Positions 36,185 to 57,559 of a DNA stretch of 64,000 bases are shown one piece after another; within the stretch, counting starts at the first letter, position 1, and each line of letters starts with the position of its first letter. Source of the stretch: Rhodococcus opacus (GTDB lineage Bacteria; Actinomycetota; Actinomycetes; Mycobacteriales; Mycobacteriaceae); NCBI RefSeq assembly GCF_012396235.1, contig NZ_JAAXPA010000001.1, positions 124,001 to 188,000 of the forward strand, written 5' to 3'. The translations under genes were made by a program, and so were the position numbers. The notes beneath the pieces are model-generated. The model was given only the letters and a program-made list of their open reading frames with translations, searched no databases and was not told the origin of the DNA.

Positions 36185-36847
36185 TCAGGTCAGGGAGTCG
36201 ACGGGCAGGGCCGCCAGCCGCCACTCGAGCATGCCGTCGGCCAGCCGCGAGGCCTGCCGGCCGTGGTCGGTCAGCAGCCGGACCGCGTCGTGGGCGAGCA
36301 CGCAGTAGGCGCCGCGGCAGTAGGCGACGATCTCCTGATCCGGCGGCAGGTCGGCCAGGTGATCGGCCAACTCGTCCAACGGAATCGACACCGCGCCGGG
36401 GATGTGCCCGGCCTGGTATTCCTCGCGGGGACGCACGTCGAGCACCGTCACCTTCCCCGACCGGGCCCGCTCGAGCAGCTGGTCCTTGCTGACGTGTTCG
36501 GTGTCGGCCGGGCCGAGATACGCGGCGGCGGCGGCCTCGACATCGGGCAGGTGGTCGTTGGCGACCGTGCGGACCAGCGCGAACAGCTGCGCCACGTCCT
36601 CGCCGGCGAGCCGGTAGAACACCTTGGTGCCCTCGCGGCGGGTGGCCACCAGATTGGCCTGCTTGAGGATCTGCAGATGCGCGGACGCGGTCGTCAGCCC
36701 CAGCTCGCAGGCGCGGGCAAGGGCGTCGACGGTGCGCTCGCCCTGGGCGAGCAGATCCAGCAGTTCGAGCCGCTTGCCGCTGCCCAGCGCCTTGCCGACC
36801 CGGGCGAACTGGTCGAACAGTTCGGTCTTCGCGATCCGATCACCCAT
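36185..36847 (-). CDS. ArsR-family regulator fused to a rhodanese domain
   Basis: The protein has 220 residues from ATG at 36847 (GGAGAAA upstream). The ArsR winged helix spans residues 10-95 (SGKRLELLDLLAQGERTVDALARACELGLTTASAHLQILKQANLV), with Cys47 near the recognition region. The rhodanese domain spans about 120-215, with catalytic Cys177 in CRGAYC. The fusion joins a DNA-binding unit to a sulfane-sulfur acceptor, so direct persulfide sensing is plausible. It is divergent from a CstB-like gene with 89 bases between starts. Confidence 0.92.
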   Translation of the reverse strand: MGDRIAKTELFDQFARVGKALGSGKRLELLDLLAQGERTVDALARACELGLTTASAHLQILKQANLVATRREGTKVFYRLAGEDVAQLFALVRTVANDHLPDVEAAAAAYLGPADTEHVSKDQLLERARSGKVTVLDVRPREEYQAGHIPGAVSIPLDELADHLADLPPDQEIVAYCRGAYCVLAHDAVRLLTDHGRQASRLADGMLEWRLAALPVDSLT

Positions 36848-36936: not shown

Positions 36937-38298
36937 ATGGCCGGGATCGATCTGGTGCCGCTCGTCGACGAGGGGCTCGGCAACTCCGCATATCTGGTGG
37001 ACCTGGGCGACGGGCGGGCGTTGGTGGTCGACGTCAGCCGGGACCTGCGGGCGGTGCACGCCGCGGCCGCGCGCCGCGGGTTGACCGTCGCGTTCGCCGC
37101 CGACACCCACCTGCACGCCGACTTCCTTTCCGGCGCCCACCAGCTCGGCGCCACCGGCGGGACGCGGGTGCTGGCCTCCGCCGCCGGGGACCGGGAGTTC
37201 CCCCGCACCGGGCTGCGCGACGGCGACGAGGTGGACCTGGGCGGGCTGCGGTTGCGGGCCCTGATGACGCCCGGGCACACCCACGAACACCTCTGTTACC
37301 TGCTCCTCGACGGCGAGAAGGAGGTCGGGGTGTTCACCGGCGGCTCGCTGCTGGTCGGCTCTGCCGCCCGTACCGACCTGATCTCTCCGGAGCGCACCGA
37401 GGCCCTCACCCGCGCCCAGTACGCCTCCCTGCAACGGCTGGCCGCACTGCCCGGCGAGGTGGCGGTGTGGCCCACGCACGGGGCGGGCTCGTTCTGCTCG
37501 GCCCCACCCGGCGCCGAACGCACCAGCACCATCGCCCGCGAACGCGCCACCAACCCGTTGCTCGCCGCCCGCGACGAGGACGCGTTCCTCGACCAACTGC
37601 TGGGATCGCTGGGCAGCTATCCGCCGTACTTCCGCCGGCTCGGGGAGGTCAACCGACTCGGTCCTCCACTCCTCGACCAGGATCCGGTGCTGCCGGCGCT
37701 GACCGTCGACACCGTCCGCGCCCAGTTGGCCGGGGGCGCCGCCCTGATCGATGTGCGCGCGCTGGCCCGGTTCGCCGCCGAACACATCCCCGGTGCGGTG
37801 TCGATCCCGCTGCGGCCGGTCTTCGCCAGCTGGCTGGGCTGGCTCGCCCCGGCCGACCGGCCCCTGATCATCGTCCGCGACCAAGACCAGGACGTGGACG
37901 AGATCGTCTGGCAAGCAATGAAAATCGGGTACGACAATCTGATCGGTGAACTCGACGGCGGCCTCGCCGCCTGGACCGCCGCCGAACTCGCGGTGGCCGC
38001 CACGGCGCTGACCGGCCCCGACGGGGTCGGCAATGTCCGGGTCCTCGACATCCGTCAACGCCCCGAATACCTGGCCGGGCACTTGCCCGGCGCCATCCAC
38101 ATCGAACTCGGCGCCCTCCCGGGCCGGGTCGACGACCTGCCCCGCGAGCCCACCGTGGTGATGTGCGGGCACGGCGAACGCGCGATGGGCGCCGCCAGCC
38201 TGCTCGAACGCGCCGGCCACCGACAGCTGACGGTGCTCGAGGGCGGTCCCGACGACTGGGCCCACGCGACCGGGCGCACCCTCGAGACCGGCGCATGA
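36937..38298 (+). CDS. CstB-like persulfide dioxygenase with two rhodanese domains (copy 1)
   Basis: The protein has 453 residues from ATG at 36937 (GGGAGAAGG upstream). The metallo-beta-lactamase domain (1-250) has THLHADFLSG at 57-66 and further His/Asp ligands (PGHTHEH). A first rhodanese-like domain (about 260-350) lacks the Cys (IIVRDQDQDVDE). The second (about 355-450) has it (VVMCGHGER). This MBL, pseudo-rhodanese, rhodanese order is that of CstB, which oxidises low-molecular-weight persulfides to thiosulfate. Its stop overlaps the start of an MFS transporter (ATGA). Confidence 0.88.
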   Translation: MAGIDLVPLVDEGLGNSAYLVDLGDGRALVVDVSRDLRAVHAAAARRGLTVAFAADTHLHADFLSGAHQLGATGGTRVLASAAGDREFPRTGLRDGDEVDLGGLRLRALMTPGHTHEHLCYLLLDGEKEVGVFTGGSLLVGSAARTDLISPERTEALTRAQYASLQRLAALPGEVAVWPTHGAGSFCSAPPGAERTSTIARERATNPLLAARDEDAFLDQLLGSLGSYPPYFRRLGEVNRLGPPLLDQDPVLPALTVDTVRAQLAGGAALIDVRALARFAAEHIPGAVSIPLRPVFASWLGWLAPADRPLIIVRDQDQDVDEIVWQAMKIGYDNLIGELDGGLAAWTAAELAVAATALTGPDGVGNVRVLDIRQRPEYLAGHLPGAIHIELGALPGRVDDLPREPTVVMCGHGERAMGAASLLERAGHRQLTVLEGGPDDWAHATGRTLETGA

Positions 38299-39964: not shown

Positions 39965-39980
39965 ATACCCATGGGGGTAT
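39965..39980. promoter_or_regulatory. CstR/CsoR-type operator, site A
   Basis: ATACCCATGGGGGTAT is a near-palindrome of the ATACCCC/GGGGTAT class seen seven more times in this window. It lies 26 bases before the FHA gene start. Confidence 0.65.
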
Positions 39981-42299: not shown

Positions 42300-43454
42300 T
42301 CAGTCGGGGTGTCCGCCGTGCGGGACGGTCAACGGGAGGGACCGGCCGACGAGACTTCGCCGCAGGATCGGCAGGGATGTCGCGATCTGCCGGATCTGTG
42401 TGACGGAGGCGGCTTGCGGGGCCGCGATCATCGCCGGGACCCCGGCATCGCCCGCCTCGCGCAGTTCGATGTCGAGTGGCACCTGCCCCAGGAGCGGTGC
42501 GGCGATGGCCTCGGCGAGACGCTGACCACCTCCGGCGCCGAACAGCGGGGTGCTCTCGTGGCACGACGAGCAGATCATCGCGGACATGTTCTCCACGACG
42601 CCGGCGACCGGCATCCGTGAGTCGCGGGCCATCCGGCCGACCCGCTGGGCGACGGTCTGGGCCGCCGGCTGCGGTGTGGTGACGACGATGAGCGCTGCGT
42701 CGGGCACGAGCTCGAGCAGCGAGAGCGTCACGTCGCCGGTGCCGGGTGGGAGGTCGATGAGCAGAACATCGAGTTCACCCCAGTACACATCGTCCAAGAA
42801 CTGCTCGATCGCCTTGTGCAGCATCGGGCCACGCCAGACGACCGGCTCGTCGTCCCGGACGAAGAACCCCACTGACATCAACGCGACCCCGAAGGCCTCG
42901 ACGGGCAGCATCAGTCCCTTCAGCGCGACCGGCGCTCGGCGCACCCCGAACAGGTGCGGGATGGAGTATCCCCAGACGTCGGCGTCGAGAATGCCGACCC
43001 GTTTCCCCTGCCGGACCAGGGCCACCGCAAGGTTGGCCGTGATTGTGGACTTACCCACGCCACCCTTGCCGGAGGCCACGGCATACACCTGGGTTGCCGA
43101 ACCCAGTCCGAACGAGTTGGCGCCCCGTGGCCCGGCGCCGCGAAGGCGTGCGGCGAGCCGCATACGCTCGCCCTCGCCCATCGCCGCGAAGGCGACCTCG
43201 ACGCCGGAGACGCCGGCGATGGCGCGGACTGCCGCGGTGACGTCGGTGGTGAGGGTCTCCTTCAGTGGGCATGAGGGCGTCGTGAGTCGGACAGTCACCC
43301 GCGCGACGCCGGAGCGGTCAACTTCCACCTCGCCAAGCATCCCGGCCTCCTCGAGGGGCAGGTGCAGCTCGGGATCCTCGACGCGTGCCAACGCGGTGCG
43401 CACGTCGGCCGGATCGACCTTCGCGTCGGCACGCCTCCGCGACAACAGGCTCAT
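42300..43454 (-). CDS. Mrp/NBP35 family P-loop ATPase (Fe-S carrier, ApbC-like)
   Basis: This 384-residue protein has an N-terminal MIP18/DUF59 domain (residues 15-95, with Ser-Cys-Pro at 61-63). It then has the deviant Walker A GKGGVGKST at 129-137, 'VGILDADVWGYSIPHLFG', 'VLLIDLPPGTGDVTLSLLE' and the cluster-binding CSSC. Mrp proteins carry and insert 4Fe-4S clusters. The start overlaps the stop of the molybdopterin oxidoreductase gene (ATGA), so it is probably a dedicated maturation factor for the many clusters of that complex. Confidence 0.92.
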   Translation of the reverse strand: MSLLSRRRADAKVDPADVRTALARVEDPELHLPLEEAGMLGEVEVDRSGVARVTVRLTTPSCPLKETLTTDVTAAVRAIAGVSGVEVAFAAMGEGERMRLAARLRGAGPRGANSFGLGSATQVYAVASGKGGVGKSTITANLAVALVRQGKRVGILDADVWGYSIPHLFGVRRAPVALKGLMLPVEAFGVALMSVGFFVRDDEPVVWRGPMLHKAIEQFLDDVYWGELDVLLIDLPPGTGDVTLSLLELVPDAALIVVTTPQPAAQTVAQRVGRMARDSRMPVAGVVENMSAMICSSCHESTPLFGAGGGQRLAEAIAAPLLGQVPLDIELREAGDAGVPAMIAAPQAASVTQIRQIATSLPILRRSLVGRSLPLTVPHGGHPD

Positions 43455-46318
43455 GGTCGCTCCTCCGCATCGGGCGATCGAAAGGCGCGTCGGCGGGGTT
43501 TGACCGGGCGCATCATGAACTCTGGACGGCGCAGCCCGGACCGGCTCGGTCCGGGACGGGTGTTGTCCATCCAGGCGCGGTACACCTCACGGGACCGCTG
43601 GGTGTCCACCACCACATCGCCGTACCGGTCGTCCACGTGGGCTCTCTCGACGCGCACCTTCTGGTGCCAGCAGTGCATGCCCGAGACCGGGTCGGGATGC
43701 ACGGCGAATGCGAGGTTCTGGTGCACGCCGGGGTCGTCCCAGTAGATCCGGTCGCTGTCCGGGTCGTCACTGTGGAACGGCTTCACCCCTTCCTTGTAGC
43801 GCAGCCTCCACACCCCGTTGCCGTCGTTGCCGAGGTCGACCAGGCCCATCACCCACCGGGATCCCGCGTTCTCGGACGTGCGCCACCGGCCCATGTGGTG
43901 GGAGAGCCCCATGACGCCGGGGCGGATCGCCTCGGTGGACCAGACGCGGGCCACGAAGTAGCCGATCTCGGTGTTGACCCGGACCAGATCGCCCGTGCCG
44001 ACCCCGAAGCGCCCGGCGTCCACGCTGTTCATCCACAGGGGATGGGTGTTGCTGATCTCGTTGAGGTACTTGGCATTACCTGATCGCGTGTGGACCAGGG
44101 TCGGGAGCCGGAAGGTCGGCATCAGCACAATCTCGTTGTTGGCCTGGTCGATCGAGCGGTAGCTGACGTGGGACTCGATGTAGCCGGGTGTGGCGTACTC
44201 CTCCCACCCGAAGTCGACCATGGTGTCGCTGAACAGCTCGAGTTTGCGCGACGGCGTGAGCCAGCCGGCGGTCCTGCTGCCGTCCGCGTGGACGACTCCC
44301 ACCGCACCCGCCTCCCCGACCAGCGGCGGGGTCGAATCGAGGGTGACGGGTTTGCGGAGCACACCGTTGCCGTCCGGGGTCGCCCCTTCGGTTTCGGCGT
44401 CCGACAGTGGCCGCTCGTCGAGTCGATAGGCATCCTTGGCGACCTCGAACACGCCGTACTTTCGCATGTATTGCAAGGGGGTCAGCCCCTGGTCGGCGGC
44501 AGCTTGTGGCAGGCCGGGCACGCTGTTTTCGAAGACCCAGCGGTAGTACTCGTCGACGGTGACCTTCTCGCCCGGCCGGTACGGCGACTCGAAGTACTTC
44601 CGGATGCCGAGGCTGCCGTCGGGGTCGATGCGCCAGGACAGCTCGAACCAGAATTCGTTCTCCTCCCACACCTCCCCCGGGTTGGATTCACGGGAGTCGG
44701 ACACGAGCCGGCCCATCTTCTCCATGGCCACCCGGGTGACCGGCTGGCGGAATCCGAGCCACTTGCCGGCGTACTGCTCGTAGGACTGGGTGTCGTGCCG
44801 TTCGGTGCTGTGCCCCATCGGCAGGACGTAGTCCGCGAACGTCGCCGTCTCCGACCACGTCGGGGTGAGTGCAACGTGGCAGCCGACGAGCTGTTCGTCG
44901 GTCAGGGCCTTCAGCCAGCTGAAGCCGTCGGGGTTGGTCCACACCGGGTTGTAGACGCGGGAGAAGTACATCGACAGCTTCCCGCGGCCGTCCTCGAGCA
45001 GGTGAGGCAGCAGGATCGACATCTCGTTGGTCGACAGTGGGAACTCCGCCGGCCAGATCATCTCGTTCCACGACTGGTGTCCCTCGGGGACGTTGGGGCC
45101 GTGGGCGATGATCTTGTCCCAGCCGTTGGGGCTGGTGCCGCCCTTGGTGCCGACGCTGCCGGTGAGCACGTTGAGGAAGAACAGGGCCCGCGACACCTGC
45201 CACCCGCCGAGGTTGCCGGACGCCGCGGCGCGCCAGACGTGTGCCGACAGTGCTGTACCGGCGGTGGCGACGATCCGGGCTAGCTCGGCAATCTGCTCCT
45301 CGGGCACCTGCGCCTCCTGCGCCGCGTAGGCGAAGGTGTATCCGGCGTAGTCCTCGGTCAACGCGCGGATGAACTGGTCGAAGTCGTCGGCAGGGTGCTC
45401 GGGGTGGCGGCGTGTCATGTACGTCGACCAGTTCACCCAGCGGCGGATGAATGCCCGGTCGATCTGACCGGTTCGGAGCAGGTACGCCGCGACGGCCAGC
45501 AGGATCGCGGCTTCGCTTCCTGGCCACGGGGCAATCCAGAGGTCGGCGTGGGAGGCCGTGTTCGACAGCCGCGGATCGAGCACGACGACCGTGGCTCCGC
45601 CCTCGATCTTGCCCTCCATGATCCGTTGCGCGTGCGGGTTGAAGTAGTGCCCGGCCTCGAGATGACTCGAAATCAGCAGGATCACCTTCGCGTTCGCATA
45701 GTCCGGCGAGGGCCGGTCGTAGCCGCCCCAGAGCGAGTAGCCGAGCCGCGCGCCGGCGGAACAGATGTTCGTGTGGCTGTTGTGCCCGTCTACGCCCCAC
45801 GCCAGCAGGAACCGTTCGGCGAAGCCGTCCTCGCCGGGCCGCCCGACGTGGTACATGACCTCGTCCCGGCGGTCCTCGACGATGGCGGCCCGGATCCGGG
45901 CCGCGATGTCGTCGAGCGCGTCGTCCCAGCTGACCCGATCCCACCGGCCGCTGCCGCGCGTGCCGACGCGCTTGAGCGGGTGCAGGATCCGCTCGGGGTC
46001 GTTGACCTGGTTGATCGTCGCGGGACCCTTGGCGCAGTTGCGCCCTCGCGAGCCCGGGTGGGCGGGGTTGCCCTCCACCCTCTTGATGGACATGTCGGAC
46101 TTGTCCACGTAGGCGAGCAGTCCGCAGGCCGACTCGCAGTTGAAGCACGTGGTGGGCACCAGCATGTACTCGTGTGGCACCTTGCGCGGGTGCGCCTTGG
46201 CGTCGTATTCGACGTGGTGGTCCCAGTTCTCGACCGGCGGGAAGTTCCGCAGCCGTTCGTGCGTGCGTTCGCCCGGCATCGCCGGCGAGGCCGGTGTGCG
46301 GTCCGTCTCGGCAGTCAT
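43451..46318 (-). CDS. Molybdopterin oxidoreductase catalytic subunit (SoeA/PsrA/PhsA-like)
   Basis: The protein has 955 residues from the ATG at 46318. An N-terminal 4Fe-4S site is Cys58, Cys61, Cys65 and Cys95. Cys186 (HTNICSAGARLGY) is the probable Mo ligand. Bis-MGD binding segments follow, and the C-terminal domain has 'PLWMNSVDAGRFGVGTGDLVRVNT'. There is no Tat signal, so the enzyme should be cytoplasmic, as in SoeABC sulfite dehydrogenase; periplasmic PsrA/PhsA have one. Upstream genes encode its electron-transfer partner, TusA and DsrE2. Oxidation of sulfite or reduction of polysulfide/thiosulfate are both possible. Confidence 0.85.
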   Translation of the reverse strand: MTAETDRTPASPAMPGERTHERLRNFPPVENWDHHVEYDAKAHPRKVPHEYMLVPTTCFNCESACGLLAYVDKSDMSIKRVEGNPAHPGSRGRNCAKGPATINQVNDPERILHPLKRVGTRGSGRWDRVSWDDALDDIAARIRAAIVEDRRDEVMYHVGRPGEDGFAERFLLAWGVDGHNSHTNICSAGARLGYSLWGGYDRPSPDYANAKVILLISSHLEAGHYFNPHAQRIMEGKIEGGATVVVLDPRLSNTASHADLWIAPWPGSEAAILLAVAAYLLRTGQIDRAFIRRWVNWSTYMTRRHPEHPADDFDQFIRALTEDYAGYTFAYAAQEAQVPEEQIAELARIVATAGTALSAHVWRAAASGNLGGWQVSRALFFLNVLTGSVGTKGGTSPNGWDKIIAHGPNVPEGHQSWNEMIWPAEFPLSTNEMSILLPHLLEDGRGKLSMYFSRVYNPVWTNPDGFSWLKALTDEQLVGCHVALTPTWSETATFADYVLPMGHSTERHDTQSYEQYAGKWLGFRQPVTRVAMEKMGRLVSDSRESNPGEVWEENEFWFELSWRIDPDGSLGIRKYFESPYRPGEKVTVDEYYRWVFENSVPGLPQAAADQGLTPLQYMRKYGVFEVAKDAYRLDERPLSDAETEGATPDGNGVLRKPVTLDSTPPLVGEAGAVGVVHADGSRTAGWLTPSRKLELFSDTMVDFGWEEYATPGYIESHVSYRSIDQANNEIVLMPTFRLPTLVHTRSGNAKYLNEISNTHPLWMNSVDAGRFGVGTGDLVRVNTEIGYFVARVWSTEAIRPGVMGLSHHMGRWRTSENAGSRWVMGLVDLGNDGNGVWRLRYKEGVKPFHSDDPDSDRIYWDDPGVHQNLAFAVHPDPVSGMHCWHQKVRVERAHVDDRYGDVVVDTQRSREVYRAWMDNTRPGPSRSGLRRPEFMMRPVKPRRRAFRSPDAEERP

Positions 46319-46346
46319 GGCTGGTCCCTTCGGCGTGGTCGTTCGT

Positions 46347-47867
46347 TCACGAGAGCGGCGGGTCCTGGCCCGCCCGGACGAAGGCCGTCTCGTAGTCGAG
46401 GAGAGCGACCTGGGCCAGCAGGCCCGCCAGGACGAGGAGCACGGCACTGCCGGACCCGGTCCACGCGGGCGCGGCCAGCGCGGCCGCCAGCACCGCCGGG
46501 GCGATGGCTCCCAGCCAGAACAGTCGCGCGTAGCGGCCGTGCGTGATGATGTGCGCGGCCACGGACGCCTGGCGGCTGGCGTGCCTGCTGGAGTACTCGA
46601 TGCCCAGCATCATCAGGTGCAGGCCCGTCGAGAGCACGAACGCGCGCGTGAGGAAAGCGATTGCACCACTGGAGAGGTCCTCGAACGGTGCCATGACGAG
46701 GAGGGCCCCGGAGCCGACCATTCCAGCCTGCACGAGCAGGTGCCAGAACAGCAGCGGCGACTGCCACAGGTCGCGGCCCTCGGCCTGCCCGAAGAGGAAG
46801 CCGGTGTAGCCGGCGACGAGCGCGCCGAACGGGATGGCGAGCCAGGCCAGCACGGTCTGGGCCCAGCCGATCTCGAGGAGGGCGGCGAGGATCCACAGGA
46901 CCGCGCCGCCGGCGAAGGCGGCCAGGGCGTAGGCGCCCCAGACGAGCCATGAGGTCCAGTTGGACTCGAGGAAGATGTAGAGGAACCGCTCGGGACGCTT
47001 GAGGTCCCAGATCAGCAGGGCCCCGGTGGCGGCGGCGCCGAGCAGGGCGACGGCGGGGGCGCCGTAAGCGCCGAGCCAGCCCAGGTCGACGCCGAGGATG
47101 TGGGCCAGCCCGGCGATGGCCAGCGCGCCGGCGGCCACGGCCTTGGTCCACAGGTAGGTCGTCACCCGCCACCCCCACGGCCGGGGGTGCGCGGTGTTCA
47201 GCGTGGTGCGCGCCCGGGTGGTGGGGTCGCCGGGCAGATCGGCGGCGGTCGCGAGGCGCTGCGCGTCCGGTTTCGCCCACAGGTAGGTGTCGGCGACCGG
47301 TGCGGCCAGCGGGTCGAGGACAGCGTGGTCGGCGCCGAGGTAGAAGACGTTGGGCCCGGTGTTCTGCTCCGGGGAGCGCACCGTGGTCTCGTGGGTACCG
47401 ATCAAGCGGGCGATGCCGCTCGTCGGGTCGTCGAGGTCGCCGACCCAGATCGAGTGAGTGGGGCAGACCACCACGCAGGCGGGCTCCATGTCGTTGTCGA
47501 TCCGATGCGCGCACAGGTTGCATTTGGCTGCGGTGTGGGTGTTGTCGTCGATGTAGAGGGCGTCGTAGGGGCAGGCCTGCATGCAGCTCTTGCAGCCGAT
47601 GCAGCGCTCGTTGTCGAAGTCGACGATGCCGTCGTCGCGCTTGAACAGTGCCTGAGTGGGGCAGATCTTCACGCACGGGGCGTCGGTGCAGTGGTTGCAG
47701 CGCATCACCCCGAAGGAGCGGGTGGTGTCCGGGAACTCGCCGGTGTCGACGTACTTCACCCAGGTGCGGAACTGCCCGACCGGCACCTCGTGCTCGGTCT
47801 TACACGCCACCGTGCACGCGTGACAGCCGATGCAGGTGCGTTGGTCGATGGCGAAGCCGTAGCGCAC
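46347..47867 (-). CDS. Fused 4x[4Fe-4S] ferredoxin subunit and NrfD-type membrane subunit
   Basis: The protein has 506 residues (GTG at 47867; a GTG at 47876 overlapping the tusA stop is an alternative). Residues 1-185 hold sixteen Cys in four groups: CIGCHACTVAC, CNHCTDAPCVKIC, CIGCKSCMQAC and CNLC...CVVVC. Residues about 235-500 form eight or nine membrane helices of the NrfD/PsrC quinone-reacting type (WSPLLFWHLL-like loop, 'FLESNWTSWLVWGAYAL'). In SoeABC and PsrABC these are separate B and C subunits. The fusion ties quinone chemistry directly to the Mo enzyme encoded downstream. Confidence 0.88.
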   Translation of the reverse strand: MRYGFAIDQRTCIGCHACTVACKTEHEVPVGQFRTWVKYVDTGEFPDTTRSFGVMRCNHCTDAPCVKICPTQALFKRDDGIVDFDNERCIGCKSCMQACPYDALYIDDNTHTAAKCNLCAHRIDNDMEPACVVVCPTHSIWVGDLDDPTSGIARLIGTHETTVRSPEQNTGPNVFYLGADHAVLDPLAAPVADTYLWAKPDAQRLATAADLPGDPTTRARTTLNTAHPRPWGWRVTTYLWTKAVAAGALAIAGLAHILGVDLGWLGAYGAPAVALLGAAATGALLIWDLKRPERFLYIFLESNWTSWLVWGAYALAAFAGGAVLWILAALLEIGWAQTVLAWLAIPFGALVAGYTGFLFGQAEGRDLWQSPLLFWHLLVQAGMVGSGALLVMAPFEDLSSGAIAFLTRAFVLSTGLHLMMLGIEYSSRHASRQASVAAHIITHGRYARLFWLGAIAPAVLAAALAAPAWTGSGSAVLLVLAGLLAQVALLDYETAFVRAGQDPPLS

Positions 47868-47872
47868 CGACC

Positions 47873-48106
47873 TCACTTCTTCCGGATGATGTAGCGGTAG
47901 ACGCCGTCCTCGCTGGTGCGCTCCAGCAGTTCGTTCCCGGTGTCCTTCGCCCACGACGGGATGTCGGTCCTCGACCCACCGTCGGTGGCCTCGACGAGCA
48001 AGATCTGCCCGGACTCGAGTTTCCGGGCCGCACGCGAGGCGAGGAGCACCGGCATCGGGCACTTCTGGCCCTTGGCGTCGATGGTGACGTCGATCTGATA
48101 ATTCAC
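47873..48106 (-). CDS. TusA-family sulfur carrier protein
   Basis: This 77-residue protein has the CPMP motif, with Cys16 (KGQKCPMPV), the sulfur-carrying site of TusA. The fold is completed by 'ARKLESGQILLVEATDGGSRTDIPSWAKDTGNELL'. TusA relays persulfide sulfur between rhodaneses, DsrE-type proteins and final acceptors in tRNA modification, Moco synthesis and sulfur oxidation. Its place between dsrE2 and the FeS-NrfD gene points to dissimilatory sulfur use. The stop overlaps the longer start of the next gene (GTGA). Confidence 0.92.
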   Translation of the reverse strand: MNYQIDVTIDAKGQKCPMPVLLASRAARKLESGQILLVEATDGGSRTDIPSWAKDTGNELLERTSEDGVYRYIIRKK

Positions 48107-48130
48107 GGCGGGCTCCCTGAATGCGGCGGG

Positions 48131-48640
48131 TCAGATGAAGAGGTTGATCTGGGACTTGCTCATCGCGGACAGCGCGGTGGCGGCACCGACGGGCTCGCCG
48201 ACACCGTCGATGAGCTGGTCGCGGCGCAGGCCGAGCAACTCCATGCTCATCTCGCACGGCCACAGGTTCACGCCCAGCTCGGTGCACATCTGCACCAGGT
48301 CCGTCGGAAGGGCCACATTCTGGCCCCGCGCCAGCTTCTTCAACATCCATGGACCGGCGCCGGCCATGTGAAGTTTGGACAGCTTCATGTGGCTCATCCC
48401 CGGCCGGTTCATCCCTGCCAGTGCCTTGGTCATCGCGTTGGTGCCGGTGATCCTGACGTCGTCACGCACCAGCGGGAAGAGCCCCCAGAACGTGAAGAAA
48501 ATCGTGGTGGACATGCCGTACGCGGCACCGGTCGACCCCAGGATCAGCGTCGGCCACATCTTGTCCAGGTCACCACTCCAGGCCACGATCGTCATGCTCT
48601 CCGGGATGACATCGTCATCGTGCTGCGGGCTGTCGGACAT
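48131..48640 (-). CDS. DsrE2-like (DsrE/F/H superfamily) sulfurtransferase
   Basis: This 169-residue protein has 'MTIVAWSGDLDKMWPTLILGSTGAAYGMSTTIFFTFWGL', a membrane-like stretch typical of DsrE2. The conserved Cys pair is Cys119 and Cys129 (LVQMCTELGVNLWPCEMS). DsrE2 proteins bind sulfane sulfur and pass it to TusA in sulfur oxidisers with the sHdr or Dsr pathway. It is the first gene of the minus-strand operon, divergent from the rhodanese-dioxygenase gene at 48817. Confidence 0.9.
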   Translation of the reverse strand: MSDSPQHDDDVIPESMTIVAWSGDLDKMWPTLILGSTGAAYGMSTTIFFTFWGLFPLVRDDVRITGTNAMTKALAGMNRPGMSHMKLSKLHMAGAGPWMLKKLARGQNVALPTDLVQMCTELGVNLWPCEMSMELLGLRRDQLIDGVGEPVGAATALSAMSKSQINLFI

Positions 48641-48730
48641 GCGCCGGCCCCTTTCTCGGCTGGCTGCCCAGGAGACCTCGTGAGGGCCTTCGCGCAGACA
48701 TTGCTAACTGTGATCCAAAACACTACATTC

Positions 48731-48744
48731 GTATATGCGCATAC
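48731..48744. promoter_or_regulatory. Palindrome in the divergent dsrE2 / rhodanese-dioxygenase promoter
   Basis: GTATATGCGCATAC contains the perfect palindrome TATGCGCATA (48734-48743). It differs from the ATACCCC/GGGGTAT sites and resembles ArsR-family operators, so one of the two ArsR proteins in the window is a candidate binder. Confidence 0.5.
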
Positions 48745-48816
48745 TGCAAGATGCCTCTTCGCGTCGTATCGAATACGTGGAAGACCACCCGACATCCGTG
48801 CACCTTGGGAGGACAC

Positions 48817-49962
48817 GTGGCTGACACCATCACCTCGACGGAACTGTTTCGCGAGATCCAGGCCGGCACCGTCACCGAGATCCTCGACGTCCGCAGCACC
48901 GACGACTTCCGGGCCGGCAAGGTGGAAGGCCCGCGGCCCGTCCCCACCCGCCACGTCCCGGTGTACCGGGTGATGGAGGAACTCGAGGAGCAGGCCGCCG
49001 CCACCCGCGAGGGTGCGGTGATCGTCTGCGGGCAGGGAAACGGCTCCGAACTGGTCGCCGAAGAGTTCGAGGCCCTCGGAGTGCGCACCCGCTCCCTGGC
49101 GGGCGGAACCGACGCCTGGAACCGGCTTCTCGTCCCCGTCGAGATCACCGGATTGCCCGGGGACGTGCGGGTGTGGCAGTTCCAGCGACCCGCGAAGGCG
49201 TGCCTGTCCTACCTCGTCGGAGTTCCCGGCGGCAACGCCGTCATCGTCGACCCCACCCGGTCTCCCGACGCTTACCTGGAGCTCGCACAGGTTCACGACA
49301 TGGCCGTCACACACGTCGTGGACACCCACGTCCATGCCGACCACATCAGCGGTGGCCCCGCCGTGGCCGCCCGGCTCGGCGCCGAGTACCACCTGCCGCC
49401 GGAGGACGCCGGTGGCATCGTTCCGTTTCCCAACCGGCCCCTGAAAGACGGCGACCAGCTCGACCTCGGCTCCGCCGTGGTCCGCGCCATGACGATGCAC
49501 CTGCCGGGACATACCCCCGGCACCACCGCGCTGTTGGTCAGCGAGACGGTTCTGCTCGTGGGGGACACCGTCTTCGTTCGCGGGCTCGGACGGCCCGACC
49601 TGACCGGCCAGGCCGACGAACTCGCCCGCGATCTCTTCCGCAGCGTGCACGAGCGACTTCGACCTCTCGATCCACGCACGATCATTGCCCCGGCGCACTG
49701 GTCCACCAGCGAAGAGATCAACGCCGACGGGCTCGTCACCACCACCCTCGAAGAGGTCTTCACCGCCACCTTGCTCAACGAGCGGGCCATCGAACGGTTC
49801 GTCGAGCAGATCGTCAGTTCCCTACCCGCAGCGCCGCAGGCCTACGACACGATCCGCCGCGTGAACGCCGGACAGATCACCCCAGGGGACGACGAGATCG
49901 AGGTCCTCGACGTCGGACGCAATCAGTGCGCGGCATCCACCTCACTGACGGCGACATCGTGA
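48817..49962 (+). CDS. Rhodanese-persulfide dioxygenase fusion (rhodanese first)
   Basis: The protein has 381 residues from GTG at 48817 (TGGGAGGAC upstream). An N-terminal rhodanese domain (residues 5-108) has Cys71 in IVCGQGNGSE. A metallo-beta-lactamase domain follows from about 118, with THVHADHISG at 170-179 and 'HLPGHTPGTTALLV'. The order is the reverse of CstB-type proteins and resembles BLH/SseA-PDO fusions. It can couple transsulfuration to oxygen-dependent persulfide oxidation. The stop overlaps the next gene start (GTGA). Confidence 0.9.
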   Translation: MADTITSTELFREIQAGTVTEILDVRSTDDFRAGKVEGPRPVPTRHVPVYRVMEELEEQAAATREGAVIVCGQGNGSELVAEEFEALGVRTRSLAGGTDAWNRLLVPVEITGLPGDVRVWQFQRPAKACLSYLVGVPGGNAVIVDPTRSPDAYLELAQVHDMAVTHVVDTHVHADHISGGPAVAARLGAEYHLPPEDAGGIVPFPNRPLKDGDQLDLGSAVVRAMTMHLPGHTPGTTALLVSETVLLVGDTVFVRGLGRPDLTGQADELARDLFRSVHERLRPLDPRTIIAPAHWSTSEEINADGLVTTTLEEVFTATLLNERAIERFVEQIVSSLPAAPQAYDTIRRVNAGQITPGDDEIEVLDVGRNQCAASTSLTATS

Positions 49963-50348
49963 CCAGCTCTCCCCGCCGGCCGGCACGCCCCGGGAAAACC
50001 CCACTGCACGAGGTCGGCGAGCATCCCGACTACCGGTTCACCCTCGCCAACGAACGCACCTTCCTGGCCTGGGTCCGCACCGCACTGGCCCTGATGGCAG
50101 CCGGGGTCGCCGTCGTCCAGTTCGTCCCCGGCCCCACGGCGATCCGCCACGGACTGGGCTTCGTGCTGATCAGCCTCGGCGGCGCGCTCAGCGCCGTGTC
50201 CTACACCCACTGGGAACGCAACGAACGCGCCATGCGGCTCGGCGAACAGCTGCCCTACTCGCCGATGCCGAGGCTGGTGGCCGCGATGCTCGCACTGGGA
50301 GCCCTGGCGGCGCTGGTGCTGACCGTAGTCGACCTGGTCGAGACCTGA
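49959..50348 (+). CDS. DUF202 membrane protein (YidH-like), first of a pair
   Basis: This 129-residue protein starts with GTG overlapping the previous stop. The DUF202 signature is 'RFTLANERTFLAWVRTALALMAAGVAV', and the protein has three helices in all (VVQFVPG..., LGFVLISLGGALSAVSY, LVAAMLALGALAALVLTVVDLV). The function of DUF202 proteins is not established. The coupling to a persulfide dioxygenase gene places it in the sulfur block. Confidence 0.88.
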   Translation: MTSSPRRPARPGKTPLHEVGEHPDYRFTLANERTFLAWVRTALALMAAGVAVVQFVPGPTAIRHGLGFVLISLGGALSAVSYTHWERNERAMRLGEQLPYSPMPRLVAAMLALGALAALVLTVVDLVET

Positions 50349-50360
50349 GGGTCGCAGCCG

Positions 50361-50717
50361 ATGCTGACCGGTCGGCTGCTGCCGCATCGTCGCAGGAAGG
50401 AACCGGCCGTCGACGTCGGCCTGCAGGCCGAGCGGACAGCCATGGCATGGCAGCGGACCGCCCTCGGCGTCGGCGGCGTGTCGGCGTTGCTGCTACACCT
50501 CGCCGCAGGCAATCTCCCGGCGGCTGTTCCAGGACTCGCCGGCCTGTCGGCCGCGCTGCTGCTACTCGTGCTGTCGGAACAGCGGTATGTGCGGATCGTG
50601 AACAAGGTGGGAGCCGGTGAGCCGCCGCCAGCCCCCGGCCTCGTACGCCTCATCGCAGCCGGTGCCGTCGTCCTCGCGGTGTCCGCCCTTGCGCTGCTGC
50701 TCCTCACCGACGCCTGA
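50361..50717 (+). CDS. DUF202 membrane protein, second of a pair
   Basis: This 118-residue protein has the conserved 'DVGLQAERTAMAWQRTALGVGGVSALLLHLA' and two more helices. It is shorter than its neighbour; DUF202 genes commonly occur as such tandem pairs, perhaps forming a heteromer. It lies 12 bases after the first DUF202 gene in the same operon. Confidence 0.87.
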   Translation: MLTGRLLPHRRRKEPAVDVGLQAERTAMAWQRTALGVGGVSALLLHLAAGNLPAAVPGLAGLSAALLLLVLSEQRYVRIVNKVGAGEPPPAPGLVRLIAAGAVVLAVSALALLLLTDA

Positions 50718-50776: not shown

Positions 50777-51112
50777 ATGGACCAAGACATCGCGGCACAA
50801 CTACAAGAACTCCATGCCAGGGTCTGCAAAGCCATTGCCGACCCCAAGCGCCTTCTCATCATCAACGAACTTCGCGACCGTGAACTGAGCGTCGGAGAAC
50901 TCTGCGAGGCAACCGGCATCAGCCAGTCCAACGCCAGCCAGCATCTGACCATCCTGCGTGAGCGCGGCATCGTGACGACGCGCCGCGTCAAGAACAACGT
51001 CTTCTACTCGCTACGCAGCCAAAAGATTGTGCAAGCAGTGGACCTGCTCCGAGAGTTCCTGGCCGAGGATCTGGCCGACCACGCAGCATTGGACGGCGCC
51101 ATCCGCGGCTGA
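50777..51112 (+). CDS. ArsR-family regulator (BigR/SqrR-like candidate)
   Basis: The protein has 111 residues from ATG at 50777 (TTGGAGGGG upstream). The winged helix spans 15-90 with 'ELSVGELCEATGISQSNASQHLTILRERGIVTTRR'. Cys17 and Cys43 are the only Cys; Cys43 matches the first redox Cys of BigR/SqrR persulfide sensors, but their second Cys near 107 is absent. It could use Cys17 instead or be redox-inactive. Genes on both sides belong to the sulfur block. Confidence 0.9.
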   Translation: MDQDIAAQLQELHARVCKAIADPKRLLIINELRDRELSVGELCEATGISQSNASQHLTILRERGIVTTRRVKNNVFYSLRSQKIVQAVDLLREFLAEDLADHAALDGAIRG

Positions 51113-51513: not shown

Positions 51514-52893
51514 ATGATTCTCGAGCAGTACTACATCGAGTGCCTGTCCCACGCCTCGTACCTGATCGGAGACGAATCCACCGGGCGAGCCGTCGTGGTC
51601 GACCCGCGCCGCGACATCACCGAGTACCTCGACGACGCCCGCACGCACGGGCTCACGATCGACGGGGTGATCAACACCCACTTCCACGCCGACTTCGTCT
51701 CCGGGCACCTCGAATTGGTGGAGGCCACCGGCGCCTGGATCGGCTTCGGCGAGGCCGCCGAGACCGACTACCCGATCCGTCGCCTCGCGCACGGCGAGCA
51801 CATTTCCCTCGGGCGAGTCGACCTCGAAATCCTCTCCACCCCCGGCCACACCTGGGAATCGATCAGCGTCCTGGTCCGGGAAACCGCGGACGCCACCCCG
51901 ACCGCGGTCCTGACCGGGGACTCGCTGTTCATCGGCGATGTCGGTCGGCCCGACCTGGTCAACCTCGGCGACGGCTCCACCACGGACCTGGCCCGCGCGA
52001 TGTACCACACGGTGCACGACACGCTACTGGCCCTGCCCGACGGCGTGACAGTGATGCCCGCGCACGGCGCCGGCTCCTCCTGTGGCAAGAACCTGTCCGC
52101 GGAGCTCACCTCGACCATCGGGGAACAACGGCGCACCAACGCGTCGGCTCAGCCGATGAGCGAGGACGCATTCGTCGCGTTGATCACCGACGGCCAGCCC
52201 GCGGTACCGGCGTACTTCTCGGTGGACGCGGCCCTGAACAAGTCCACCCACCCGGCGCTCGACCAGCACCGTCGGATCCCGGAACTGTCCGCGGACCGGG
52301 TGCGCGCCGAACTCGCCGCCGGCACCCGGGTGCTCGATGCCCGCACCGTCGACGACTTCGCCGCCGGACACTTGCGCGGTGCGGTCAACGTCGGCTTCGA
52401 CGGCCGGTTCGCCGAAACCGGCGGCATGGTCGCCGAGGTCGGCGAGGCGATCGTGCTGATCACCTACCCGGGCGAGGAACAGGACGCGGCGATGCGCCTG
52501 GCCCGGATCGGCTCGGACAACGTGATCGGCTACCTGGGCACCCACACCGACGGCGTCCTCCCCACCGCACTCGCCGACCTCGTCCAGACGGCGCCGCGCA
52601 CCACCGTCACCGAACTCGACCGGCTGCGCGCCGACGATGCGATCACCCTGGTCGACATCCGCAACCCCGGCGAACGCGACTCCGGCGTCATCCCCGGTGC
52701 GATCCCGGTTCCGTTGGCGCAGTTGCGGTCCCGAGCCGAAGAGCTGCCGACTGGCAAGCCGATCGTGGTGCACTGTGCCGGTGGATGGCGTTCGAGCGTC
52801 GCCGCATCGCTGCTCCGCGCCCGCGGTATCGAGCGGGTCAGCGATCTCGTCGGCGGCTACAACGCATGGGCCGCACAGCAGGTGTCGGCCTGA
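51514..52893 (+). CDS. cstB: CstB-like persulfide dioxygenase with two rhodanese domains (copy 2)
   Basis: The protein has 459 residues from ATG at 51514 (GGAGGAGA upstream). The MBL domain has THFHADFVSG at 55-64 and 'STPGHTWESI'. The first rhodanese-like domain (about 270-355) has Tyr-Pro in place of the Cys loop (ITYPGEEQDAAM). The second (about 365-457) has Cys in VVHCAGGWRSS. The order is exactly that of Staphylococcus CstB. Three ATACCCC/GGGGTAT sites in front make it the clearest CstR target here. A thioredoxin gene follows. Confidence 0.92.
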   Translation: MILEQYYIECLSHASYLIGDESTGRAVVVDPRRDITEYLDDARTHGLTIDGVINTHFHADFVSGHLELVEATGAWIGFGEAAETDYPIRRLAHGEHISLGRVDLEILSTPGHTWESISVLVRETADATPTAVLTGDSLFIGDVGRPDLVNLGDGSTTDLARAMYHTVHDTLLALPDGVTVMPAHGAGSSCGKNLSAELTSTIGEQRRTNASAQPMSEDAFVALITDGQPAVPAYFSVDAALNKSTHPALDQHRRIPELSADRVRAELAAGTRVLDARTVDDFAAGHLRGAVNVGFDGRFAETGGMVAEVGEAIVLITYPGEEQDAAMRLARIGSDNVIGYLGTHTDGVLPTALADLVQTAPRTTVTELDRLRADDAITLVDIRNPGERDSGVIPGAIPVPLAQLRSRAEELPTGKPIVVHCAGGWRSSVAASLLRARGIERVSDLVGGYNAWAAQQVSA

Positions 52894-54937: not shown

Positions 54938-55243
54938 ATGCGTGAAATCGAGATCGGTGAATTCGCCGACGCGTGGGCGGCGGGAGCGCCCGTCGTCGAC
55001 GTTCGAGAGCCGTGGGAATACCGGAATGCGCACGTGCCCGGCGCGCAGTTGCTGCCGTTGGGACAGCTTGGCGACCGGGTAACGGAGATCCCGGCCGGCG
55101 CGGTGGAGTACGTGATCTGTGCGTCCGGGAACCGGAGCGTGCAGGGGGCACGAATCCTCATGACTGTCGGACGACCCGCGGTGTCGGTGGCCGCGGGGCA
55201 CCTCCGGGTGGGCCGCGGCGGGCCGGCTCCTCGACACCGGTGA
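54938..55243 (+). CDS. Single-domain rhodanese, C-terminus altered by a frameshift
   Basis: The frame has 101 residues with 'PVVDVREPWEYRNAHVPGAQLLPLGQL' and catalytic Cys61 (VICASGNRS). The last helix should read TSGWAAAGRLLDTGDGG, but this is in the next frame and ends at 55267; one extra G in the GCGGGG run near 55195 explains the shift. The active-site loop is intact, so activity may survive. Two CstR-type sites lie right upstream. Single-domain rhodaneses move sulfane sulfur between thiols. Confidence 0.8.
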   Translation: MREIEIGEFADAWAAGAPVVDVREPWEYRNAHVPGAQLLPLGQLGDRVTEIPAGAVEYVICASGNRSVQGARILMTVGRPAVSVAAGHLRVGRGGPAPRHR

Positions 55244-57543: not shown

Positions 57544-57559
57544 GTACCCCGGGGGGTAT
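57544..57559. promoter_or_regulatory. CstR/CsoR-type operator, site F (autoregulatory)
   Basis: GTACCCCGGGGGGTAT lies 28 bases before the start of the CsoR-family gene, in the usual place for self-repression. Confidence 0.7.

Follow-up and report, generated by a model that had tools for sequence, protein, structure and literature searches.

We propose that five genes on the minus strand of a 64,000-nucleotide stretch of Rhodococcus opacus DNA (hereafter the window; source genome, 8.1 Mb) encode a two-polypeptide, membrane-anchored, cytoplasm-facing sulfite:quinone oxidoreductase of the polysulfide-reductase-like complex 3 (PSRLC3)/SoeABC kind, together with helpers for sulfur delivery and maturation. 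From the sequence comparisons described below, we put the probability of this reading at roughly two in three. The genes occupy positions 42300-48640 in the order DsrE2, TusA, Fe-S/NrfD fusion (FeS-NrfD), molybdenum (Mo) protein, and Mrp/NBP35. The spacing in operon order is 24, 5, and 28 bp, with the last pair overlapping by 4 bp, and the set is very probably a single operon:

48131..48640, minus strand: DsrE2-like sulfur carrier encoded by the operon's first gene, 169 aa (PF13686, DrsE_2, E 3.5e-41)
47873..48106, minus strand: TusA-family sulfur carrier, 77 aa (PF01206, E 4e-22; CPMP motif with Cys16)
46347..47867, minus strand: fused electron-transfer/quinone subunit, 506 aa, with four [4Fe-4S] motifs plus NrfD (PF13247, PF03916)
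43451..46318, minus strand: molybdopterin oxidoreductase without a Tat signal, 955 aa (PF04879, PF00384, PF01568)
42300..43454, minus strand: Mrp/NBP35-type Fe-S carrier ATPase, 384 aa (PF10609, NUBPL-type ParA, E 5e-90; PF01883, FeS_assembly_P)

Gene calls came from our own codon-usage script, which was checked against the annotation of Rhodococcus jostii RHA1 only and which missed the rhodanese gene at 54938. Plasmid pRHL3 of RHA1 has the identical gene order, and its Mo protein is 98% identical to that of the window. A first-pass annotation, made from the window sequence alone, had claimed five tightly packed minus-strand genes, carrier cysteines at DsrE2 Cys119/Cys129 and TusA Cys16, four [4Fe-4S] clusters plus NrfD in one polypeptide, and a Mo protein lacking a twin-arginine translocation (Tat) signal. 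Gene positions and Pfam domains bear out the first of these claims, and all three cysteines lie at those positions. The single polypeptide contains 16 Cys residues in four motifs and PF03916, and the twin-arginine motif is absent from the first 80 residues of the Mo protein.

In the proposed pathway, whose substrate, direction, membrane side, order of sulfur transfer, regulator, and regulatory signal we infer, DsrE2 and TusA would gather sulfane sulfur as protein persulfides, and a divergently encoded rhodanese-metallo-β-lactamase (MBL) enzyme would convert persulfide and O2 to sulfite. The Mo protein would oxidize sulfite to sulfate and pass electrons through the four [4Fe-4S] clusters of the fused subunit and the NrfD domain to (mena)quinone. 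The Mrp/NBP35-type ATPase, a probable maturation factor, would be the source of Fe-S clusters. At the shared promoter, an ArsR regulator would induce both arms as persulfide rises.

For comparison, a four-member profile search gave at least 592 pattern stretches, at least 555 of which encode a relative at E 1e-3. Of these at least 555 related loci, the 80 best (57-77% identical) were retained and combined with 40 actinobacterial genome regions (39 from an even draw of the phylum, plus G042 from a draw of relatives). Five of these 120 loci were dropped as duplicates (≥ 95% identity); 88 of the remaining 115 span at least 12 kb and 27 are shorter.

The Mo protein belongs to a well-separated clade. 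The 117 family members form one clade in a FastTree tree of 162 rows (support 100), as do the 37 family members in an IQ-TREE tree of 52 rows (support 99), and PhsA, TtrA, DmsA, and FdnG fall outside the clade in both trees. The first-pass annotation had called for a check on placement within the formate or nitrate enzymes. The Mo protein falls outside them in both trees, and a formate or nitrate enzyme is thereby ruled out. The claimed sulfur-oxidation module is supported. In the FastTree tree, the clade neighbors a group of 16 that includes an Azoarcus plasmid protein; PhsA lies outside this group as well as outside the core clade in both trees. The reference proteins sit on long branches, and the IQ-TREE tree, for which 9 of the 16 were sampled, does not settle the branching order of TtrA, the neighbor group, and the core.

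Tat signals were scored with one setting for all groups, which asked for a twin-arginine motif within 80 residues and a hydrophobic stretch after it; an earlier scan of the FastTree rows had used motif settings that differed between groups, and the later one-setting figures apply here. The test was passed by 14/16 members of the neighbor group, 7/29 other rows, and 8/117 core rows. In all eight passing core rows, the motif opens 9 residues ahead of the first Fe-S cysteine, and what scored as the hydrophobic stretch is the Fe-S site itself; because of this adjacency, no core row was counted as signal-bearing. The two failures in the neighbor group (Azoarcus and L158) nonetheless hold RRxFLK. 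A clade without Tat signals next to a neighbor group of 16 that bears them counts in favor of our reading, and the Mo subunit is predicted to be located in the cytoplasm. A PsrA/PhsA-type exported reductase is ruled out by the absence of a Tat signal and the position of PhsA on another branch. The neighbor group is an exported relative. Within it, L150-L153 and L021 carry twin-arginine motifs and show ≈30-35% identity to the Mo protein of the window. In the Azoarcus member, Fe-S and NrfD are encoded separately and a TorD gene is present.

Fusion of the electron-transfer and membrane subunits is the rule in the clade, because 108/112 called copies (103/107 without duplicates) are at least 450 aa long. 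Three of the four short copies start within 52 bp of a contig start, and the fourth (L211) has 431 aa. The one-piece subunit had been presented in the first-pass annotation as an exception to separate B and C subunits; these counts do not support that view, and a B/C fusion as an oddity is likewise ruled out. The Fe-S/NrfD gene lies directly upstream of the Mo gene on the same strand in 101/115 loci. In an alignment of 41 copies, 13 of the 16 cluster cysteines are invariant and 3 are nearly so. Segments in the hydropathy profile of the NrfD part merged, yielding no topology.

These features resemble SoeABC, which has a cytoplasmic Mo subunit with an N-terminal Fe-S site, an Fe-S subunit, and an NrfD/PsrC-like anchor (PMC5114278). 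The four-cluster Fe-S subunit is matched by the fusion (16 Cys, PF13247) and the anchor by PF03916 (E 3.9e-19). By description, the likeness to SoeABC of Allochromatium vinosum and Aquifex extends to a Tat-less Mo subunit, whereas the three subunits are separate there and B and C form one polypeptide in the window. All 41 of 41 aligned Mo proteins keep Cys58/61/65/95 and Cys186; the former are candidates for an N-terminal [4Fe-4S] site, and Cys186 is the putative Mo ligand. PsrABC and PhsABC share the domain set as well, but E. coli PhsA bears a Tat signal, its subunits are separate, and it branches elsewhere in the trees. By profile, the best solved relatives are 2vpw_A for the Mo protein and 2vpw_B for the Fe-S part, from a complex that we take to be Thermus thermophilus PsrABC.

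That both subunits have their best solved relatives in the 2vpw complex would also suit a reductive enzyme, in which quinol electrons reduce sulfur, polysulfide, or thiosulfate, as would the grouping of the bSreA sulfur reductase with SoeA in a lineage described as cytoplasmic with a Cys ligand (PMC10100899). We consider a reductive role quite unlikely in view of the oxidative-looking neighbors of the complex (O2-dependent persulfide dioxygenase [PDO]-like, sulfide:quinone oxidoreductase [SQR]-like, and SulP genes) and of the dsr locus beside it in a green sulfur bacterium, both described below. Rhodococcus is also an aerobic genus, which speaks against a reductive role in this host.

The dsr linkage was found in Chlorobium sp. 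N1 (L102), whose Mo and fusion proteins are 58% and 42% identical, respectively, to those of the window. The two complex genes are followed by genes for TauE, an unassigned protein, DsrE2, rhodanese, TusA, a CobB-type protein, DsrC, DsrA, and DsrB (DsrE2, 223 bits against a cut-off of 210; DsrA, 509 against 393; DsrB, 483 against 341). After DsrB, the stretch ends in a partial gene for an NAD(P)-binding protein, which by its position we take to be DsrL. This was the only scanned locus with a DsrA or DsrC match, and the only other Mo homologue found in Chlorobium sp. N1 at a threshold of E 1e-5 (L213) bears a Tat signal. DsrAB acting in reverse produces cytoplasmic sulfite, and SoeABC genes are present in all purple and green sulfur bacteria (PMC8232776). 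PSRLC3 is encoded by two genes (PMC5473276), a feature of green sulfur bacteria that L102 matches. From the position of a two-gene complex beside dsr genes and from the cited statements on PSRLC3 and SoeABC, we infer that the L102 complex is PSRLC3. The window shares with PSRLC3 the two genes, the Tat-less Mo protein, and the FeS-NrfD fusion, and in L102 the complex is linked to DsrE2, TusA, rhodanese, and dsr genes. The window differs in that its partner is a PDO/rhodanese set with ArsR and CsoR/CstR-type regulators instead of Dsr, and in the addition of Mrp. Dsr-based sulfite production in the source genome was ruled out, since DsrA over the cut-off was not found there.

Sulfur genes are enriched around the complex. 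Profiles built from neighboring genes were run on the loci and on 39 control windows, which came from actinobacterial genomes only, several per genome, with positions picked by hand. SulP sulfate permease genes lie near 37/88 loci compared to 0/39 control windows (21/32 versus 0/39 for actinobacterial loci alone, p 2e-10), and PDO-like genes near 48/88 versus 2/39, where the PDO-like profile can also match other MBL-fold enzymes. The corresponding counts are 47/88 versus 2/39 for rhodanese, 17/88 versus 0/39 for DsrE2, 15/88 versus 0/39 for TusA, 12/88 versus 0/39 for SQR-like genes, 15/88 versus 1/39 for TauE, and 20/88 versus 2/39 for ArsR. At least one of the tested sulfur genes occurs near 65/88 loci and 5/39 controls. 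Pfam searches on one representative each confirmed sulfate permease, MBL, DsrE2, TusA, rhodanese, TauE, and ArsR; for the SQR-like representative they confirmed only a pyridine nucleotide-disulphide oxidoreductase, and a TorD-like representative matched PF02613. The first-pass annotation had offered sulfite and carrier-bound sulfur as substrates. Sulfite fits better and carrier-bound sulfur is less likely, because SulP and PDO-like genes are commoner neighbors than the carriers.

Several observations weigh against a sulfite:quinone oxidoreductase. No SulP gene lies next to the window operon, a search of the source genome with one SQR query gave no close SQR, and 23/88 loci have none of the tested sulfur genes in reach, including those of the close relatives L024, L037, L038, and L042. 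The complex is rare in the genus (2/28 same-genus genomes, own included). Three sulfite-oxidase-fold proteins of the genome exceed the PF00174 cut-off, which implies that the complex need not be its sole sulfite oxidase. Bacterial sulfur reductases belong to the same lineage as SoeA (PMC10100899). The trees cover PhsA, TtrA, DmsA, and FdnG as references, and kinship with SoeA is proposed from its described features. Among the matches listed from tblastn searches of plasmid records (the best 30 of 557 and the best 60 of 559), there was no SoeA reference; these matches comprised the family itself, formate, nitrate, PhsA, DMSO, TtrA, and unnamed types, and a 30% Azoarcus protein that has a twin-arginine motif.

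DsrE2 and/or TusA occur near the complex in 17/88 other loci, including those of Chloroflexota, Thermomicrobiota, Bacteroidota, and one green sulfur bacterium, which does not support the view that the coupling of carriers to the complex is peculiar to this actinomycete. The window proteins score below the NCBIfam equivalog cut-offs (DsrE2, 78 bits against 210 for SulfCarrDsrE2; TusA, 58.5 against 78), and their names are consequently used at family level only. Among 22 called neighboring DsrE2 proteins (the window and one duplicate pair counted), Cys129 is kept in 22 and Cys119 in 11. TusA Cys16 is present in 17/19 proteins by gene calls; the two misses (L039, L041) do carry CPMP, just 5' of a start called too late. 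When the window and RHA1 were added to the 88 loci with their character states set by hand, DsrE2 was near 19/90 and TusA near 17/90 loci, requiring 13 and 11 changes on the tree, respectively, and the two were gained or lost jointly in 10/12 independent pairs (p 0.002). On this evidence, the carriers look like an add-on that was repeatedly gained or lost. This agrees better with carriers that bring sulfur to an enzyme making sulfite than with carriers that the Mo enzyme requires as its substrate. In Gordonia rhizosphera (L033, 5989-6255), the DsrE2 match beside TusA is split into two pieces, which could represent gene decay or a separate short family; it was scored as present.

An improbable alternative is that the carriers feed the Mo site directly. 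DsrE2/TusA would present sulfane sulfur, or carrier-bound sulfite from the dioxygenase, and the Mo enzyme would oxidize the bound sulfane sulfur or sulfonate, with PDO as a parallel overflow. In favor of such feeding, the operon runs from dsrE2 through tusA to the core with 24 and 5 bp between genes, TusA lies immediately upstream on the same strand in 8/92 other loci, and the two carriers change jointly. However, both carriers are absent nearby in 71/88 loci, and neither is found at 30/37 SulP loci or 34/48 PDO loci. Moreover, a PDO-like gene is present in 14/17 carrier loci compared to 34/71 other loci (p 0.014), which implies that another enzyme is available for the sulfane step. If direct feeding were true, sulfur would stay protein-bound from persulfide to sulfate, and an aerobic actinomycete would gain respiratory electrons.

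The carriers could instead be maturation factors that bring sulfur to the Mo cofactor while Mrp provides Fe-S clusters, all off the substrate path. TusA has a role in Mo cofactor synthesis in E. coli, and maturation-type genes lie directly downstream of the Mo gene in some loci (TorD-like, 19/107; Mrp, 7/107 other loci, and also RHA1 pRHL3). This alternative, which is compatible with sulfite oxidation by the complex, seems to us quite doubtful given the 71/88 loci without TusA or DsrE2 nearby and the Chlorobium carriers, which sit in a sulfur-transfer set together with rhodanese and DsrC. Downstream TorD-like genes occur in one part of the tree (17/90 loci, one change), though the Mo proteins there are without Tat signals; examples are L195, L183, and L100 (Actinomycetota), L083 (Chloroflexota), and L085 (Acidobacteriota), and in L046 the gene lies two genes further on. 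The fusion-Mo-Mrp order of the window recurs on a plasmid of the haloarchaeon Natrinema halophilum (L004; Mo identity, 54%), a cross-domain spread of the complex with the same ATPase partner.

The kept loci come from Actinomycetota, Chloroflexota, Thermomicrobiota, Bacteroidota, Acidobacteriota, Myxococcota, Calditrichota, Spirochaetota, and other phyla, with one Chlorobium, and haloarchaeal plasmids carry the complex too; a core unique to actinobacteria is thereby ruled out. Within the phylum, 40/396 genomes of an even draw (own included, E below 1e-150) have the complex. Among 61 drawn relatives, three had an E 0 match (own, G018, and one of another family), and RHA1 was the one plasmid record at ≥ 95% identity among the matches listed. 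Thus, the enzyme core is a widespread, little-annotated family that is not specific to this genome. What is newer is how carriers, dioxygenase, and Mrp are placed around this core in actinobacteria, with a conserved site in the shared promoter. We found no description of this gene set in Actinobacteria in the literature, as judged mainly from titles and abstracts with subscription papers thinly covered, which is no proof that none exists. A SoxC/SorA-like candidate sulfite oxidase is described in Rhodococcus qingshengii IGTS8, in a paper whose text has no mention of SoeA (PMC8557817). The YTD cluster of sulfur disproportionators consists of yedE with tusA, dsrE, and conserved hypothetical genes (PMC12998232). 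In Thermomicrobium roseum, an sHdr cluster with tusA, dsrE1, and dsrE2 likewise places carriers beside a system for oxidation of sulfur compounds, but that system is hdr-based (PMC6776052). The T. roseum copy of our complex is in a plasmid record, where TusA and DsrE2 are not annotated within 8 kb on either side.

The operon faces a plus-strand sulfur island across a 176-bp promoter, with the following features:

48726..48746: conserved 21-bp operator-like site, CATTCGTATATGCGCATACTG, in the divergent promoter shared with the dioxygenase
48817..49962, plus strand: rhodanese-MBL protein, persulfide-dioxygenase-like, divergent from the operon (PF00581, PF00753)
49926-50348 and 50361-50717, plus strand: adjacent pair of DUF202 membrane proteins, flanked by the dioxygenase and ArsR
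50777..51112, plus strand: ArsR-family regulator (PF01022)
51514..52893, plus strand: second MBL-rhodanese (3tp9, E 1.9e-83; 3r2u, E 2.8e-57), with two CsoR/CstR-type boxes upstream
54938-55243, plus strand: rhodanese
51425, 51445, 54289, and 57545 (exact) and 39966, 54877, 54911, and 61037 (one mismatch): TACCCCNNGGGGTA boxes

The divergent rhodanese-MBL protein has 3tp9, 3r2u, BpPRF, and ETHE1 as solved relatives and contains the motifs HVHADH and GDTVFVRGLGRPD. Further plus-strand genes encode a thioredoxin, an MMPL transporter, and a CsoR-family regulator. L176, L179, L185, and L194 also have a DUF202 cluster close to the complex (representative confirmed). The reading of the rhodanese at 54938-55243 departs from the RHA1 copy after ≈80 residues and stops earlier.

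The corresponding promoters of L002 (a near copy of the window), L023, L025, L026, L027, L028, L032, and L041 carry sites related to the 21-bp element. Eight sites were picked by eye before matrix scoring, with L039, L100, and L173 left out of the matrix; on leave-one-out, each was the top-scoring position of its whole locus (8/8). L039 has a site at the DsrE2 promoter that scores 28.1 bits, on par with the set. The weaker sites of L100 (21.0) and L173 (19.0), between or beside ArsR and DsrE2, are leads only, because they score under an unrelated genic hit in L081 (23.2). The loci (2.0 Mb) gave 116 matches scoring at least 12 and the controls (0.78 Mb) gave 2; this ratio is no clean test because several high matches lie in AT-rich loci (GC content, 42% in L081 compared to 68% in controls). 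Of the 12 loci in which the site is named, 10 have a called ArsR gene, and in the other two (L028, L039) the contig begins at or beside the dioxygenase gene. The ArsR protein of the window is a candidate reader of the site.

The TACCCCNNGGGGTA motif occurs in the window in four exact and four one-mismatch copies, against 0.05 expected. In the CsoR-family regulator of the window, two cysteines are kept and the histidine of copper CsoR is not. In Streptomyces coelicolor, ScCsoR binds ATACCn6GGTAT before a PDO gene and senses sulfane sulfur (PMC7533328). This form occurs in the window at 39965, 51444, 54288, and 54910: the 51444 box precedes the second MBL-rhodanese, the 54910 box precedes the rhodanese start at 54938, and the 39965 box overlaps the start of an FHA-domain open reading frame, while the 54288 box has no assigned gene. 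A box of the other form, at 57545, precedes the CsoR-family gene. Together, the boxes suggest a regulon across the island that senses sulfane sulfur. The island shares with the S. coelicolor CsoR-PDO-rhodanese-sulfite transporter circuit its PDO-like, rhodanese, and CsoR-family genes and the operator form. In contrast to that circuit, which has a sulfite transporter, the window has a probable sulfite oxidase beside PDO, and the promoter of the Mo operon bears a different, ArsR-type candidate site. Elsewhere in the window, an ArsR-type helix-turn-helix domain is fused to a rhodanese domain (36188-36847, minus strand) in a gene divergent from an MBL-rhodanese gene at 36937; this fusion is possibly a one-piece sulfur-responsive regulator.

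The product that persulfide dioxygenase leaves behind in the cytoplasm, sulfite, is toxic, and its route to sulfate in aerobic heterotrophs is often unclear. In a Bohai Sea study, pdo genes were abundant and membrane-bound SoeABC was reported as not detected in the samples (PMC12345210). The fused, Tat-less clade, found in 40/396 genomes of the phylum and also in Bacteroidota, Chloroflexota, and other phyla, is a candidate that searches for SoeABC may overlook. If our reading is true, the five-gene set probably completes the conversion of waste sulfur into harmless sulfate by oxidation and delivers the electrons to respiration.

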